The position numbers were made by a program, and so were the translations under genes. A DNA stretch of 51,238 nt, taken from positions 1-51,238 of the forward strand of contig JAOZUK010000018.1 in the NCBI GenBank assembly GCA_029938715.1, in the 5' to 3' direction. Source of the stretch: Bacteroidales bacterium (GTDB lineage: Bacteria; Bacteroidota; Bacteroidia; Bacteroidales; GCA-2748055). How positions within the stretch are numbered: the stretch's first letter is position 1; each line of letters begins with the position of its first letter. The notes beneath the pieces are model-generated. The model worked only from the letters and a program-made list of their open reading frames with translations. It searched no databases and was not told the origin of the DNA. This document shows positions 2,855 to 35,886 of the stretch, one piece after another.

Positions 2855-3724
2855 TCAATTCCTTTCCCTTGCAATCCTATTCGCGGGATGATATTCATCG
2901 ATTTTCCTTTTGAGCTTTATAATATTGATTTGCTTATAGAACTCTGTACTGCTTACATATCTATGTCCGGCCATATATTGTATGGTTCTTAGATCATATT
3001 GCTTTAACCAAAGCGCAATAACACTTTGTCTGATCTGGGTGGCATTTTTGACCTTGGGATACGTGTTGGATAAATCTATGAATAAATGATGCAGACTATT
3101 CTTCAATTCTTGCGATCCAGCAACACTGAGTAATAATTGATCAGATTTTCGGAATAGATTTTCAATATTCGGTTTTCGCCCTGGGAGATGTCTATATCTA
3201 TCCCCAAGAATTCTTGGTCTGAAATTATCAATATAATCGATTAGGTCTATGATTTGGAGGGCTTCCAATTCAAGCTCTCTTGCATTTGATCCCTTCTTCC
3301 ATTGACTGGCAGGACTTTCACGAATAAGCATTGTTCCCTTTCTAAATAATATATCATTTGCACGAAGCCTATGCAATTCACCTGTCGAAATTCCCTGGAA
3401 TATCAAAATTCCGAGGATAACTTTGTTCCTGATATTTCGGACATCATTGCTTTCAACAGATTTATAAAGAGCATCAAGTTCCTCTCTGTTTAACAGGTCA
3501 TGTGCCATTCTATGAGAAGGATTCTTGATCCGGATGCTTTTTGCTGGATTGCTTAAATCAGGATTATTGCTAATTAGAGTCTGTCCATAGACTCTAACTA
3601 GATTTGATACCATTTTATAGTCCCCGCCTTTGTTTAAAGCGTATGTCTCAGTGAAAAAGAAAGATTCTGAACTTTCTGATAACGCCGTTACCACCAGCGG
3701 CGCATTTGCAACTGCAAAAAACAT
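2855..3724 (-). CDS. Tyrosine recombinase, N-terminally short, atypical catalytic set
   Basis: The C-terminal about 230 residues match the catalytic domain of tyrosine recombinases. The box II segment reads QIRQSVIALWLKQYDLRTI, followed by MAGHRYVSSTEFYKQ with the GH pair and the nucleophile Tyr. A Lys (in QWKKGSN) is in the beta-hairpin position. The first catalytic Arg is not seen: the usual GLRxxEL motif reads GISTGEL, and the His of HxxR reads Thr. The core-binding domain is nearly missing. The first 37 residues from the ATG at 3724 look unlike this family and run through two DNA hairpins, so the functional start may be ATG 3613 (MVSNLV). I infer 5' truncation or replacement near 3620. 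It could move accessory DNA, or be a relic. The 130 nt upstream of 2855 contain nothing recognisable. Confidence 0.7.
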   Translation of the reverse strand: MFFAVANAPLVVTALSESSESFFFTETYALNKGGDYKMVSNLVRVYGQTLISNNPDLSNPAKSIRIKNPSHRMAHDLLNREELDALYKSVESNDVRNIRNKVILGILIFQGISTGELHRLRANDILFRKGTMLIRESPASQWKKGSNARELELEALQIIDLIDYIDNFRPRILGDRYRHLPGRKPNIENLFRKSDQLLLSVAGSQELKNSLHHLFIDLSNTYPKVKNATQIRQSVIALWLKQYDLRTIQYMAGHRYVSSTEFYKQINIIKLKRKIDEYHPANRIARERN

Positions 3725-30246: not shown

Positions 30247-30276
30247 TTCACCGATAAACCAGCCTGTTTCATCGAA
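30247..30276. promoter_or_regulatory. 30-bp dyad element, copy 1 (candidate LytTR operator)
   Basis: Half-site CGATAAACC (30252-30260), five bases, GTTTCATCG (30266-30274), flanked by TTCAC and AA. It matches 25 of 30 bases of the element at 34059-34088. It lies 61 bp before the lipoprotein start codon. Confidence 0.45.
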
Positions 30277-30336
30277 AAAAGTTGCCAGGCATACCCTTTT
30301 CCCAGAATTTTACATGGAAATCAAAACTTAAAAATC

Positions 30337-31038
30337 ATGAAACGCTCATTTGTAATAATCACAATTATGGTTCTGGCTTCCCTGACCGGTTGTCTGGTAA
30401 GTTCACTTCATCCTTTCTTTAAAGAGAAAGATAAAATATATGATCCCATCCTGACAGGTACCTGGATAGATGGTGATTCCTGTATATGGACCATTGAACT
30501 TGACAAATTCCTGGACCCCATTTCGGGACAGGAAAAAAATGATGGCAACTATAATATAACCTATTACGAGGATCGTGATTCAAAATCGGAATTGATTGGA
30601 ACACTTTTTAAACTTGCCGGCGTCACTTATGTAGATTTTATCCCGGATCCGGATGGGGATAACATCACTTCTGATATGGCAAGCTGGCATCATATTCCGG
30701 TACATACCCTGGCCAGGGTTCAATACAACAGCGATAGCATTATGCTTTACTGGTTTGCCGACGAGTGGCTCACAGAATTATTCGAACAGAAACGCATCCG
30801 GATCAAACATGAAACCGTTGAATCTGGTGATTACGACCGACACGTGCTGACAGCTTCAACAGATGATCTTCAGAAGTTCATTAAGAAATATGTCAACGGT
30901 TCAAAAATGGCCGGAGAGGTAGAGAAGGTTTTTGCCAGAGGTTATACCGACGACCAGGAAGGATATGGCATATTCCTTAAGCTCAAACCTTACGATGGTC
31001 CACTTCCGTCGGCTCCTGGTCAGGTTCAGGTAAACTGA
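30337..31038 (+). CDS. Lipoprotein of unknown function
   Basis: A 233-residue lipoprotein: the signal peptide MKRSFVIITIMVLASLTGC has a clear L-T-G-C lipobox with Cys19. The body has an early YDPILTGTWIDGDSCIWTIE reminiscent of lipocalin-like proteins, then HTLARVQYNSDSIMLYWFAD. I do not recognise a family. A 30-bp dyad shared with the LytSR/peptidase intergenic region lies upstream, so it may be controlled by the LytTR regulator. Confidence 0.6.
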   Translation: MKRSFVIITIMVLASLTGCLVSSLHPFFKEKDKIYDPILTGTWIDGDSCIWTIELDKFLDPISGQEKNDGNYNITYYEDRDSKSELIGTLFKLAGVTYVDFIPDPDGDNITSDMASWHHIPVHTLARVQYNSDSIMLYWFADEWLTELFEQKRIRIKHETVESGDYDRHVLTASTDDLQKFIKKYVNGSKMAGEVEKVFARGYTDDQEGYGIFLKLKPYDGPLPSAPGQVQVN

Positions 31039-31047
31039 TTAGGACTG

Positions 31048-31563
31048 TTATTTCAACCGATTCAGGACTGCCGGTATGGCTTTTGTAACGGTAACTCTTT
31101 TCTCGCCCTTGATAAATGCCATGACCTCATCCCTGCTTTTAAGAGTCCTTAGTTTTTTAACTGCATCTCTCACACTGTAGTGAGAACTGTGATCCACCAC
31201 TTTAGCAACTGGTTTTGGAGCCGGCTTTGAAACTGGCTTTGAAACTGGCTTCGAAACTGGCTTTTGCACAGGTTTTGCTGCTGGTTTAGCTACCACTTTG
31301 GCTAAAGGCTTTTCCTCAGCAACCTTTTTCTTTGGGGATTTCTTTTTCTTTACAGGCTTCTTTTTGGCTGCCTCTTTCTTCTTAGATTCCTTCTTCTTAG
31401 CCACCTTTTTCTTAGCCACCTTCTTCTTAGCGTCCTTCTTCTTATCAGCCTTTTTCTTATCTGCCTTCTTCTTTCCTATTTTCAACTTCCTAAGTATACC
31501 CTTCTTCTCCTTCTTCTTATTGTCCTTTTTGTTTGATTCTTTTTTTGATTTCTTTTTTGCCAT
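31048..31563 (-). CDS. Lysine-rich histone-H1-like protein
   Basis: A 171-residue very basic protein. Residues 1-80 are dominated by Lys with tandem AKKK/DKKK-type repeats. About 85-122 are a Pro/Ala/Val region with KPVSKP repeats. About 130-171 form a compact helical end reading YSVRDAVKKLRTLKSRDEVM and RVTVTKAIPAVLNRL. It resembles bacterial histone H1-like proteins (HctA/Hc1, and AlgP-like tails) by composition, not by clear homology. Probable role: nucleoid or RNA binding. It ends 9 bp from a convergent gene. Confidence 0.65.
   Translation of the reverse strand: MAKKKSKKESNKKDNKKKEKKGILRKLKIGKKKADKKKADKKKDAKKKVAKKKVAKKKESKKKEAAKKKPVKKKKSPKKKVAEEKPLAKVVAKPAAKPVQKPVSKPVSKPVSKPAPKPVAKVVDHSSHYSVRDAVKKLRTLKSRDEVMAFIKGEKRVTVTKAIPAVLNRLK
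31213..31490. repeat. Short tandem repeats inside the lysine-rich gene
   Basis: Repeats of the DNA unit GGCTTTGAAACT (encoding KPVSKP) lie near 31220-31265, and repeats of CTTCTTAGC-type units (encoding AKKK) near 31370-31450. They can expand or contract by slippage and would alter tail length. Confidence 0.6.
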
Positions 31564-31676
31564 GATATTTAGATTTAAATCAGGTTCGATTTTACAATTG
31601 TAAGTTATAATTTTTCTGGCTATTTAATCCTCTCTTTTAAGTCAAATTACTCTGAATTTAACATGATTGGCTTCAA

Positions 31677-34010
31677 CTACCTCCTTGAGGTATTAACCTT
31701 GAACTCGTAAGGCTCGGGGGGCTCCGCTCCAAGCAGGTGCTTTACAAAATAGTCCCACCTCCTTCGCATCATATAGGGCTCATTACCAAAACCGTGTGAT
31801 CGGTTGGGGAAGAGGATCAGGTCAAAATCCTTATTTGCAGCAATCAGCTCATTCACCACAAGCAGTGTATTGTACATGGGCACATTGTCATCCATGGTGC
31901 CATGGGCCAGCAGGAGTTTCCCCTTCAGGTTCTTTGCCAGAAGCTGGTTGGCCTGGTTATCGTAATTGGTGGTACCATCGGGATTTGCCTTCAGAAGGCC
32001 CTGCCATTTTTCGCCCCAGGCATCCTCATAATTTCGATTGTCGTGGTTGCCTGCTCCGCTCACAGCCACCTTAAAGAAATCGGGATATCGAAGTATGGCG
32101 TCTGTGGAAGCAAATCCTCCCCCCGAATGGCCATATATTCCTACCCGTTCCAAATCGATCCATGCGTACCTTTCAGCCAGCTGTCTCATCCCGGTAATCT
32201 GGTCGGGCAATCCGTTATCTCCCATGTTCCCGTAGTAAGCAGCATGGAATGATTTTGAGCGCATTGGTGTTCCCATGGCATCTATGGCAACCACAATGAA
32301 ACCAAGCTCAGCAAGTGCCTGGTTATCACCTCTGGCTCCGGAAAAGCTGCGCCCTCTAACACTTCCTGATTGTGGCCCCGGGTAAATATAGTTGATGATG
32401 GGGTATTTTTTTTCAGGATCGAAGTTTGAAGGTTTGTACATCAATCCATAAAGATCGGTCTCTCCGTCGCGCGCTTTAACCACCACCGATACCGGTGCCA
32501 CCCAGCCAGCTTCCATCAATTCTGAAACATCAGCTTCTTCAAGAGTCAGCAGCTGATTACCCTCCTGATCACGCAATTCAGTTACGGGGGGCACTTGCGG
32601 AGTGGAATAATTATCTATAAAATAGCCTCCTTCGGGAGAGAGGTTGATTCGATGATTGGCACTGTCGGGGGTAAGTAATTTAAGACCTGATCCATCCAAA
32701 TTCACCTTGTATAGATACTGGAAATAGGGATCACCAGCCTCGTTCCCGGCACCCATAAAGAAGAGGGCTCTTTGGGCTTTATCAATATGCAGGACCTGAA
32801 TAACATTCCATTTCCCGCTGGTTACCTGATGCTTGAATGTGCCGGTGGTCAGATCATATAAATAGAGATGACCCCAGTTATCACGTTGAGAGAACCAGAG
32901 CACTTCATTGGATTCCGGAAGATAGTGCCAGTTCACCTTGTTATAGCCAGACTCGAAAAAGGATTCTGACTTCTCCTCCAGCACTTCTCGCACCACCCCT
33001 GTTTCAGGATTGGCTACCCTGAATATCACGTGTTTATGATCTCTTGAGGTGGAAACAAATGAAAGGCTGGATGCATCGGCACTCCATTCTACATCGGCAA
33101 ACTGCCCTCCCCTTGTAGCGATGTGATCGGTAATGGTGGATCTGTGCTGGTCTGGTGCCATTTGCAACCGAACCACCCTGGGCTCTTCAATGTGGATTAC
33201 TACCCGGTGTATCCTGAATATCACACTATCTTCGGGCAGGGGATACTTCCAGGCCTGAAGTTTGGGATGCCCCACATTGGTGGTTGCCAGGTACATCTCC
33301 CCTACCCCCCTGCCATCATGCTGAAAGGTGGCGATCTTTTTTGAATCGGGCGACCAGAGGAGAACAGGGCCGCTGCTTCGGGTCCATCCCGCATTGTTGG
33401 TGGCATATCCAAAGTCCTCAATCCCATCTGCAGTTAGCTGTTTCTCCTCTCCAGAGTTAAGATTCTTCACCCACAGATTGTAGTCTTTGATAAAAGCTTT
33501 CCAGTTACCATCCGGGGAGGTAGAAGCACCACGTGATTGAGCAGGGCTGCGCCCCTCCTCTGTACATGAATTTTTCTTCGAATTGTAGCTATACTTCTTC
33601 CCCATAGAGCTGAATTCAATAACTCCCCCTTTGTGATCAAAAATAAGAGAAGATAATCTCAATTTATATGGATCCAGGATAGTCCCACTCTCCTTTCCCA
33701 GCGCTTTTGCCAATTTCTCATGATCAAATGCAGGTTGACGGACCTTTTTTACTACGTCCACAAATAGATACTCTGCTCCTGCGGGTATGTTGTTCTTGTA
33801 CCAGAACCGATGGGTATCGATCCACTCTGGCCGTACACTGGCTTTAAAGATTAGCGGATTGGTGGATGCCCACAGAAAGCTCTCTGCCCTGGAATAATCG
33901 GCTGTAGTTACCAGTTCCGGTTCATATTTTACCTGGCCCGTTACTTTCGGGGTAATTAAAAGAGTGATACAGATCAGGTTGATCATTAGTTGATCTAATG
34001 GTTTTCTCAT
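31677..34010 (-). CDS. Dipeptidyl-peptidase IV family serine peptidase (S9)
   Basis: A 777-residue exported peptidase. The signal peptide is within the first 25 residues. The N-terminal DPP-IV beta-propeller (about 80-480) is followed by an alpha/beta-hydrolase domain with YIYPGPQSGSVRGRSF. The nucleophile S629 is in YGHSGGG; the Asp is in HGTMDDNVP and the His in FPNRSHGFG. It releases N-terminal dipeptides from peptides in the periplasm. The best promoter in the window lies upstream (TTTG-N19-TAGCTTTG), overlapped by the 30-bp dyad, and it is divergent from the LytS gene. Confidence 0.9.
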   Translation of the reverse strand: MRKPLDQLMINLICITLLITPKVTGQVKYEPELVTTADYSRAESFLWASTNPLIFKASVRPEWIDTHRFWYKNNIPAGAEYLFVDVVKKVRQPAFDHEKLAKALGKESGTILDPYKLRLSSLIFDHKGGVIEFSSMGKKYSYNSKKNSCTEEGRSPAQSRGASTSPDGNWKAFIKDYNLWVKNLNSGEEKQLTADGIEDFGYATNNAGWTRSSGPVLLWSPDSKKIATFQHDGRGVGEMYLATTNVGHPKLQAWKYPLPEDSVIFRIHRVVIHIEEPRVVRLQMAPDQHRSTITDHIATRGGQFADVEWSADASSLSFVSTSRDHKHVIFRVANPETGVVREVLEEKSESFFESGYNKVNWHYLPESNEVLWFSQRDNWGHLYLYDLTTGTFKHQVTSGKWNVIQVLHIDKAQRALFFMGAGNEAGDPYFQYLYKVNLDGSGLKLLTPDSANHRINLSPEGGYFIDNYSTPQVPPVTELRDQEGNQLLTLEEADVSELMEAGWVAPVSVVVKARDGETDLYGLMYKPSNFDPEKKYPIINYIYPGPQSGSVRGRSFSGARGDNQALAELGFIVVAIDAMGTPMRSKSFHAAYYGNMGDNGLPDQITGMRQLAERYAWIDLERVGIYGHSGGGFASTDAILRYPDFFKVAVSGAGNHDNRNYEDAWGEKWQGLLKANPDGTTNYDNQANQLLAKNLKGKLLLAHGTMDDNVPMYNTLLVVNELIAANKDFDLILFPNRSHGFGNEPYMMRRRWDYFVKHLLGAEPPEPYEFKVNTSRR

Positions 34011-34040
34011 GGCAAGTATTTAATATAAAAATTAGCATCA

Positions 34041-34071
34041 CAAAGCTACTTTTTTCGATTCACCGATCAAA
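34041..34071 (-). promoter_or_regulatory. Canonical Bacteroidetes promoter of the S9 peptidase
   Basis: On the minus strand: TTTG (34068-34071), exactly 19 bp, TAGCTTTG (34041-34048). This is a full match to TTTG-N19-TAnnTTTG and about 30 nt before the ATG. Confidence 0.7.
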
Positions 34072-34088
34072 CACCCGGTTTCGTCGAA
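34059..34088. promoter_or_regulatory. 30-bp dyad element, copy 2 (candidate LytTR operator)
   Basis: Half-site CGATCAAAC (34064-34072), five bases, GTTTCGTCG (34078-34086), with TTCAC and AA flanks. It covers the -33 box of the S9 promoter and sits 17 bp before the LytS start. 25 of 30 bases equal the copy at 30247-30276. Confidence 0.5.
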
Positions 34089-34105
34089 TTTATTTTCCAC
34101 CAGTG

Positions 34106-35194
34106 ATGAATTTCTTAAATTGGCCTCTGAACATGACCAGGCCATTGAAATTCAGCAAAGGGAAAGTCGGCCTTACCGACCTGATGATTTTCCGGAACAG
34201 ATGGTGGCAACACCTTATATTCTGGGCCATTGCACTTTTCGTGCTGCTCAATATATTTAAAAGTTCTGGTTCTCCTGAGAAGATTGATGTGATTTACACC
34301 CTTATCTTTATTGTTCCAATTACTGGCATTGTTTACCTGAACCTCTACCTGTTTGTCCCCAGATACTTAAGGAGGGAAAAATATCTGCTCTATGTACTAT
34401 TCATCATGGTTCTGATTGTAGGTGGTGCACTCTTTCTTTACTTCCTTTTCGATAGTCTGATCGACCTGTTGCTCCCCAACTATTACTTTATCTCCTACTA
34501 CAATGTGCCCATTTTAATGTTGTATACAGGTAGTTTTCTGCTACTGACCACCCTAATGAAACTATCCAGAAGCTGGTTTATGTTACTTCGCGTAGAACGT
34601 ATGACCACCAGTCACCAGTTAAAGTCCTTGCAATCTCAGATCAATCCACATTTTCTGCTTAACAGCCTTCAGTCCATCTATGCACTCTCCATAGAGAAAT
34701 CGGAGCAAACCCCAAGGGTCATACTTCAGCTTGCCGACATTTTAAAATATACACTTTATGAGACGGAGCAGCCCAGAGTAAAACTGGAAAAGGAGATGGA
34801 GATGGTCACCGATTATGTGGAGATACACCGACACCGGATAGATCCGGTACGTGCTGAAATCAGACTTGAGATTGAGGGAGAATCCAGTGGCTGTATGATT
34901 GCTCCCATGCTTTTGATTCCATTTATCGAAAACAGCTTCAAGCATGGACTCCAGGGCTCTCCGCACCATACATATGTCCACATCCATATAGAAGTAGATT
35001 CCTGCAAATTCAGGTTCCGGATTGAAAATAACCTGGGTAAGACCGATTCCATACAGCGCAGGGAGAAGAGAGGGATTGGAATTGAAAATACCAGGCAACG
35101 GCTCGAACTGTTGTACCCTGGTAAACACAGTCTCTCCATAGGGAAGAAGGACAAGTCATTCCTGGTAAAACTAGAATTGGATCTAAATGAATAA
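34106..35194 (+). CDS. LytS-type sensor histidine kinase
   Basis: A 362-residue sensor kinase from ATG 34106 (ATG 34133 and 34184 are alternatives; a start upstream at 33998 would overlap the divergent gene). Four membrane helices are followed by a His_kinase domain with LQSQINPHFLLNSLQSIY (phospho-acceptor H182) and an HATPase with IPFIENSFKHGLQG and GIGIENTRQRLELLYP. It phosphorylates the LytTR regulator two bases downstream. The signal sensed is unknown. Confidence 0.9.
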   Translation: MNFLNWPLNMTRPLKFSKGKVGLTDLMIFRNRWWQHLIFWAIALFVLLNIFKSSGSPEKIDVIYTLIFIVPITGIVYLNLYLFVPRYLRREKYLLYVLFIMVLIVGGALFLYFLFDSLIDLLLPNYYFISYYNVPILMLYTGSFLLLTTLMKLSRSWFMLLRVERMTTSHQLKSLQSQINPHFLLNSLQSIYALSIEKSEQTPRVILQLADILKYTLYETEQPRVKLEKEMEMVTDYVEIHRHRIDPVRAEIRLEIEGESSGCMIAPMLLIPFIENSFKHGLQGSPHHTYVHIHIEVDSCKFRFRIENNLGKTDSIQRREKRGIGIENTRQRLELLYPGKHSLSIGKKDKSFLVKLELDLNE

Positions 35195-35196
35195 GT

Positions 35197-35886
35197 ATGG
35201 CCACCTGCCTGATCATAGACGATGAGCCCCTGTCGAGGGATGTACTCAGGAAATATATTGGAGAGCTAAAAGATCTGACCCTGGTAGCAGAGTGTCGTGA
35301 CGCGTTTGAGGCCACTGCTCAATTGAGTGCAGAACAGGTTGATCTTCTGTTTCTTGATATCAATATGCCCGGACTATCGGGGATCTCATTTGCCAGGTCG
35401 CTGACCATCTCTCCATTGATCATTTTCACAACTGCCTACCCCGAATATGCCGTGGAGGGATTTGAGCTGAATGCGCTGGACTACCTGGTGAAACCCTATT
35501 CATTTGAACGATTCCTGAAAGCGGTAAACCGGGCCAAAGAGCGTCTGCTGGAGCTGAAGACTGAGGGTGAGATCTCCAGGAAAATCATTCTCAAAGCCGA
35601 TAAAAAGATATATGCCATTGACTTCTCAGAAATGCAATACATAGAAGGACAGGGCGATTACATTAAAATCCACCTCATGAACAAAATGCTGGTAGTTCAC
35701 CAGACCCTAAAAAGCATTGTGGAATCATTACCGGAGGAGGAGTTCATGCGAATCCATAAATCCTATTTGGTGAACCTGAAACAGATTGAATTCATTGAAG
35801 GGAATCAGGTGAAAGTAGGTGAACATAACATTCCCGTAAGTCCCCCAAACCGTGAGGAGTTGATTCAAAGGTTCTCCGCTCTGTAA
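35197..35886 (+). CDS. LytTR-family response regulator
   Basis: A 229-residue regulator. The receiver domain (1-115) has D8, D9 and the phospho-Asp D54 in LLFLDINMPG, with the conserved Lys in LVKP near 107. A LytTR DNA-binding domain (about 130-229) has MQYIEGQGDYIKIHL, then MRIHKSYLVNLKQIEF. It starts two bases after the kinase, so both come from one transcript. A plausible operator is the dyad element upstream of the operon and of the lipoprotein at 30337; this is inference. Confidence 0.93.
   Translation: MATCLIIDDEPLSRDVLRKYIGELKDLTLVAECRDAFEATAQLSAEQVDLLFLDINMPGLSGISFARSLTISPLIIFTTAYPEYAVEGFELNALDYLVKPYSFERFLKAVNRAKERLLELKTEGEISRKIILKADKKIYAIDFSEMQYIEGQGDYIKIHLMNKMLVVHQTLKSIVESLPEEEFMRIHKSYLVNLKQIEFIEGNQVKVGEHNIPVSPPNREELIQRFSAL

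Follow-up and report, generated by a model that had tools for sequence, protein, structure and literature searches.

In a 51,238-nucleotide stretch of a Bacteroidales genome (contig JAOZUK010000018.1 of assembly GCA_029938715.1; hereafter the window), two copies of a 30-base element stand in front of a lipoprotein gene and in front of lytS, and each copy is very probably a two-repeat autoregulatory operator at which the LytTR response regulator encoded at 35197-35886 would most likely act as an activator. Copy A (30247-30276, plus strand) is composed of TTCACCGAT at 30247-30255 and TTCATCGAA at 30268-30276 with a 12-bp spacer and precedes the lipoprotein gene; copy B (34059-34088, plus strand) is composed of TTCACCGAT at 34059-34067 and TTCGTCGAA at 34080-34088, again with a 12-bp spacer, and precedes lytS. 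Both assignments rest on direct reading, an exact match and orthologous sites, which for copy A were found in genus and family. An earlier note on this DNA had already reported the two copies, and its positions and its count of 25 identical bases in 30 are correct. None of 100 dinucleotide shuffles of the window gave a match to the element, and the 30-base consensus at up to 3 mismatches found no third copy in the whole assembly (6,212,585 bases, or 6.2 Mb, in 945 contigs), the backward control giving 0. Each copy is oriented alike with respect to its own downstream gene (lipoprotein gene or lytS), and both are reversed with respect to an S9 peptidase gene; when read as direct repeats followed by a -33/-7 promoter, they appear to face the lipoprotein gene and lytS and not the peptidase.

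A 30-base pattern was matched in 25 of 149 relatives, with the matches outside the genus being scattered and chance-like. Nine matching loci in other genus and family genomes (L008-L016 minus duplicates, plus L027) were inspected, and wherever the sequence is kept it stands before an orthologue of either the lipoprotein gene or lytS and of no other gene; at L011 and L014 no homologue lies beside the match, which looks like chance. A set of 22 sites was also picked by orthology and not by motif, leaving out loci with a cut 5' end (L042, L060), a duplicate (L049, of L038), members of other families (L046, L047, L050, L051) and paralogous lytS loci (L061-L067). The element is present within 3 mismatches at 19 of these 22 places, that is, before 13 of 14 lipoprotein genes and 6 of 8 lytS genes, so that the proposal withstood the comparison of orthologous intergenic regions that the earlier note had named as able to refute it. 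The lipoprotein site of one genome (G019) has decayed to 4 mismatches, and there lytS is gone and a LytTR remnant alone remains. In two neighbouring genera of the family (g2 and g3; L040, L041, L043, L045), the lipoprotein gene, lytS and lytTR constitute one operon with the element in front. As a separate observation, locus L084 (4681-5100) carries a LytTR domain remnant behind the lipoprotein gene, with lytS lost and the operator decayed; it offers a natural case in which to follow how a site is lost once its regulator has gone.

The same linkage extends well beyond the family. A scan with a profile of the lipoprotein, taking one genome per species, confirmed 115 loci. The 80 that were retained span Bacteroidales, Cytophagales, Chitinophaga and relatives and Saprospiraceae, as well as Verrucomicrobia and Phycisphaerae. 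Among the 80, lytS lies downstream on the same strand in 50 that have an intact lipoprotein upstream region to search (it is also present at L140, where the locus is cut at its start, and lies 2.5 kb downstream and not adjacent at L083), and the lipoprotein gene thus usually heads a lipoprotein-lytS-lytTR operon. The repeat TTCAYCGAW-N12-TTCAYCGAW occurs upstream of 10, 19 and 26 of the 50 linked loci at up to 1, 2 and 3 mismatches, respectively, whereas the remaining spacers between 0 and 30 give no more than 2 of 50 at up to 2 mismatches and peak at 8 of 50 (spacer 29) at up to 3; shuffles of the same 50 regions gave means of 0.00 and 0.11 at these two thresholds. In a control of 27 loci with no lytS downstream, which omits L080, L088 and L140 because the match begins no more than 250 bp into the locus, the repeat is found at three (L081, L082, L087), all of them carrying sites of the window's genus, where lytS lies elsewhere. 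The collection overlaps the set of relatives, in that L083, L085, L086, L089 and L096 are apparently G002, G026, G024, G023 and G018 (identical sites). Nine lipoprotein genes from Verrucomicrobia and Phycisphaerae (L119, L124, L131, L151, L153-L155, L157, L159) have neither a nearby lytS nor the repeat.

Additionally, the repeats stand at a fixed distance from a putative promoter. In an alignment of 19 sites anchored only on the repeats, every site has TT at columns 36-37 (-33) and again at 63-64 (-7), with a T-rich, CTTTG-type box at columns 59-66 and little conservation in the columns between the boxes. The consensus promoter of Bacteroidota has TTG at -33 and TAnnTTTG at -7. A predicted promoter of this kind begins 5 bp after the second repeat, with its -7 box about 20 bp past the -33 box. 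For the lipoprotein gene, the inferred promoter occupies 30282-30312 on the plus strand (-33 TTG at 30282-30284, -7 GAATTTTA at 30305-30312, spacer 20), as judged from the conserved columns 36-38 and 59-66 and from its being the best -33/-7 pair in the segment. For lytS, it would occupy 34094-34123 on the plus strand (-33 TTT at 34094-34096, -7 TAAATTGG at 34116-34123), given the -33/-7 fit and the conservation before the start codon of TTAAATTG, which in this or a close form is kept shortly 5' of the lytS ATG in orthologues, the exception being G002, where the stretch is lost. On account of this layout, we propose that lytS starts at 34133 in place of the longest-open-reading-frame start at 33998.

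Several observations weigh against an operator for the adjacent regulator. The two repeats of copy B agree at only 6 of 9 bases, and a strict search for repeat plus promoter missed this copy. That motif-first search led nowhere: across 247 genomes of the class it returned 4 matches outside the window's own genome, none of them beside a homologue. In one relative (G002), the intergenic stretch that would bear the element is missing and lytS lies directly behind an oxidoreductase open reading frame (ORF), and no clear element was seen at the lytS of another (G003). Within the wider collection, 24 of the 50 lytS-linked loci have no repeat within 3 mismatches, and motif drift or another site must therefore be assumed there. 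Finally, a genome with no lipoprotein gene (G016) has the repeat pattern at up to 2 mismatches in 17 places, compared with 2 for the backward control, and weak repeat matches accordingly mean little.

The form of the element bears on what might bind it. The earlier note had described each copy as a dyad of CGATnAAAC half-sites around a 5-bp centre, and a true dyad bound by a symmetric dimer would be a different kind of site from the direct repeat TTCAYCGAW-N12-TTCRTCGAA, 21 bp from start to start, that our comparison favours. The dyad exists as described, with 7 of 9 half-site pairs fitting in each copy, while the repeat units match at 7 of 9 bases in copy A and 6 of 9 in copy B; as both forms fit, the window copies alone cannot settle the matter. 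Even across the genus and family sites the difference is small (112 of 171 dyad pairs as against 123 of 171 repeat pairs), and among the wider sites dyad pairs 11-23 and 12-22, both involving Ts of the search template, match at 12 and 8 of 19. However, the template-free dyad pairs 10-24, 13-21 and 14-20 (in the first, base 24 is a search-template position and base 10 is free) match in 14 of 57 cases over the 19 wider sites, the level of chance, and conservation is low at the C and G of AAAC/GTTT (0.13 and 0.18 bits at columns 13 and 14). The free repeat pairs 11-32 and 12-33 match at 10 and 9 of these 19 sites. Moreover, the repeat units agree at 8 of 9 bases in several relatives, and Prolixibacter, with TTCATCGAA-N12-TTCATCGAA, and others have perfect or near-perfect direct repeats. 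The apparent dyad can be attributed to the repeat unit being nearly its own reverse complement; as the primary form it was rejected on the orthologous and wider sites, and we consider a genuine dyad highly improbable.

Three further explanations concern what the element serves. Copy B lies between divergent genes, 48 bp from the start of the S9 peptidase gene (31677-34010, minus strand; dipeptidyl peptidase IV type by Pfam), and could be a shared two-way operator that also controls this gene; the earlier note had placed this copy over the -33 box of the S9 promoter. The A-rich ATCGAAAAAAGT lies on the S9 side and adjoins both copies, as the note had said. At 30247, it is made up of the second repeat and an A-tract that extends into the -33 box, and it is largely kept before lipoprotein orthologues; at 34059 it is outside the element and on the opposite strand, and it was not seen beside the element at the five other lytS sites of the genus. 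A third repeat or S9-side operator at copy B was rejected, as the other genus lytS elements have no adjoining ATCGAAAAAAGT counterpart. A promoter fit in the S9 direction (7 of 9) decides nothing because it ties with the other promoter fits. In contrast, the peptidase gene diverges from lytS in the window only and is not a lytS neighbour in other genus genomes, and eight homologue loci in seven of these genomes lie elsewhere with no element within 3 mismatches (L199 being without its 5' part). On this comparison the peptidase is probably not a target, and two-way control is unlikely.

The site might instead serve a paralogous LytTR protein or a factor of another class. The genome contains 12 matches to the His_kinase family, and one paralogous operon has a near-identical repeat, such that cross-talk is possible. 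This operon, on contig C356 (L068), encodes a LiaF-like protein, LytS and LytTR and bears a perfect TTTACCGAT-N12-TTTACCGAT (repeats at 3031-3060, minus strand) followed by a TACTTTTG box at nearly the same distance as in the window promoter. It is likely a second autoregulatory LytTR system; its repeat supports such repeats being LytTR sites and also warns of possible cross-talk. However, C356 alone among the other 11 His_kinase matches has the repeat within 3 mismatches in the fetched flanks, and the element tracks the lipoprotein-lytS-lytTR linkage. When these other loci were scanned more freely, for a promoter preceded by a 21-bp repeat of any sequence, the outcome did not exceed the controls, with 17 places at offset 21 and 22 at the control offset of 18. 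The cognate LytTR proteins, as judged from their sequences, share a distinctive DNA-binding domain: 53 of 54 have the loop [ED][GA]N and all 54 have GDY, compared with 0 of 11 and 1 of 11 at other LytTR loci (10 distinct, L065 and L074 being one locus). Binding by another regulator in place of the adjacent one is very improbable. In the window's own genome, the repeat pattern at up to 2 mismatches occurs at 13 places, including two perfect ones in the window, as against 1 for the backward control; the two 1-mismatch places are on C595, by eye inside an apparent histidine-kinase coding sequence, and on C796, and a half-site search at 2 mismatches added only one AT-rich place. The earlier proposal of a regulon operator for the adjacent LytTR therefore stands in part: the element is conserved before both genes and tracks the three-gene operons across Bacteroidota, yet just two promoter-type copies were found in this genome and a wide regulon is not supported.

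The second copy could, lastly, be a passive relic of promoter duplication at the splitting of the operon, with no regulatory role. In the window, a lysine-rich ORF and the S9 gene lie between the lipoprotein gene and lytS; in G008 the interval holds a glycoside hydrolase (GH) cluster (GH2, GH26, GH5, GH97), and in G010 and G002 a 3-keto-disaccharide hydrolase and a GFO/IDH/MocA oxidoreductase (cargo loci L180 and L181/L182). Because these inserts differ, the ancestral operon seems to have been split by varying cargo in this genus, and most genomes have retained the operator ahead of each half. As the operon is split here and joined in the two neighbouring genera, the promoter region may plausibly have been duplicated or co-transferred, but both copies have been kept while flank and spacer bases diverged among genus members, which suggests selection, and we regard a relic without function as exceedingly unlikely.

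The lytS gene (34133-35194, plus strand) encodes a His_kinase protein (PF06580, E 1.6e-22), with its -7 box conserved just before the ATG, and adjoins the lytTR gene (35197-35886, plus strand; Response_reg and LytTR, E 3.7e-20 and 7.7e-18), whose product is the proposed binder; this is the arrangement of a LytS/LytTR two-component system. In the PDB, the LytTR domain has weak matches (3D6W, E 0.0057; AgrA, E about 0.04). The lipoprotein gene (30337-31038, plus strand) encodes 233 residues with a lipobox Cys19 that is invariant in 77 aligned lipoproteins. This unnamed family has no Pfam or NCBIfam entry and no sequence relative in the PDB, and the PDB and family searches yield no function. An AlphaFold2 model (pLDDT 87.8, pTM 0.83) suggests a lipocalin-like beta-barrel; its VIA Z scores against the Bacteroides lipocalin-like lipoproteins 4GZV, 4IAB and 4I95, whose fold is a calycin-type barrel, are 9.0, 8.6 and 8.4, with root-mean-square deviations of 4.2-5.0 over 109-115 residues, fits that are middling and show no function, and Foldseek in the PDB returned avidin-type barrels, none below E 0.001. 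The lysine/alanine/proline-rich ORF between the lipoprotein and S9 genes (31048-31563, minus strand, 171 residues) has no Pfam family, and homologues occur near the lipoprotein gene in several genus members.

If the element is the operator that we propose, two LytTR domains would occupy TTCACCGAW and TTCRTCGAA, on the same face of the helix and separated by two turns, where they would sit right against the -33 box and could recruit RNA polymerase. LytS would phosphorylate the regulator, which would raise lytS-lytTR transcription in a positive feedback and also that of the lipoprotein gene, which lies at a distance of 3.8 kb. The genes form a single operon with a single copy of the proposed operator in most relatives, whereas in this genus, where inserted genes have split the operon, lytS has a copy of its own. 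We infer binding by this regulator, and activation and not repression; the lipoprotein may tune LytS as a partner in the outer membrane or periplasm. A broader suggestion, which we offer tentatively and with some doubt, is that the lipoprotein together with LytS and LytTR constitutes a signalling family of three parts, as yet without a name, across Bacteroidota, in which the lipocalin-like lipoprotein would bind an envelope ligand or damage signal and tune LytS, and the rigid operator-promoter cassette would act as a feedback switch that came through the splitting of the operon by duplication instead of being lost. The split operon would show how an autoregulatory loop can survive operon break-up. 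The cassette, common to Bacteroidales and Cytophagales loci, could serve directly as a probe for such regulons, and it points to the lipoprotein as the prime target.

LytS-type kinases are common in this genome, yet in the literature searched we found no operator described for lipoprotein-lytS-lytTR operons. The system of Staphylococcus aureus resembles the one proposed, in that an AgrA LytTR dimer binds two direct repeats directly upstream of P2/P3 and activates its own operon (PMC4227749). The Agr system has no lipoprotein. It serves peptide quorum sensing through AgrC, and its repeat sequence is another. Escherichia coli YpdA/YpdB is likewise a LytS/LytTR pair with two direct repeats and the 11-13 nt spacers of the class; it differs in its target yhjX and its GGCATTTCAT repeats and has no lipoprotein partner (PMC4847170). 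In the Bacteroides operons resembling LytTR regulatory systems (LRS), from B. thetaiotaomicron and B. ovatus, the class, the LytTR regulator and the repeats near a TAnnTTTG-type promoter are alike, whereas the repeats are 11 bp with an 11-bp spacer, 11 bp from the promoter, and a membrane-bound LytTR is partnered with an NfeD/DUF2154 protein (PMC6193735, Table 3); these operons are nearer in kind to the LiaF-like operon of C356 than to the lipoprotein system. An LRS, as defined in that source, joins a LytTR protein to an inhibitory membrane protein (PMC6193735), and the system here, with a His_kinase-family protein and a lipoprotein as partners, falls outside that definition. HdrRM and BrsRM of Streptococcus mutans pair LytTR with an inhibitory membrane protein (PMC6193735), as opposed to the LytS kinase, receiver-LytTR protein and lipoprotein here, and their repeat sequence differs. 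The 9-bp direct repeats, 12-bp spacer and place near the -35 box of HdrRM and BrsRM are nonetheless like those here, and both show the positive autoregulation of a LytTR-encoding operon that we propose (PMC6193735). LytTR sites in general consist of two repeats of 9-11 nt, direct or inverse, with a spacer of 11-13 nt (PMC4847170), and positive autoregulation in S. mutans is driven by such repeats with a 12-bp gap, located 4-11 bp ahead of the -35 box (PMC6193735). The element in the window has 9-bp repeats, a spacer of 12 and a distance of 5 bp to the predicted -33 TT (19 of 19 sites), and because it fits the published numbers for repeat, spacer and promoter distance, its most likely role is to activate both lytS-lytTR and the lipoprotein gene.

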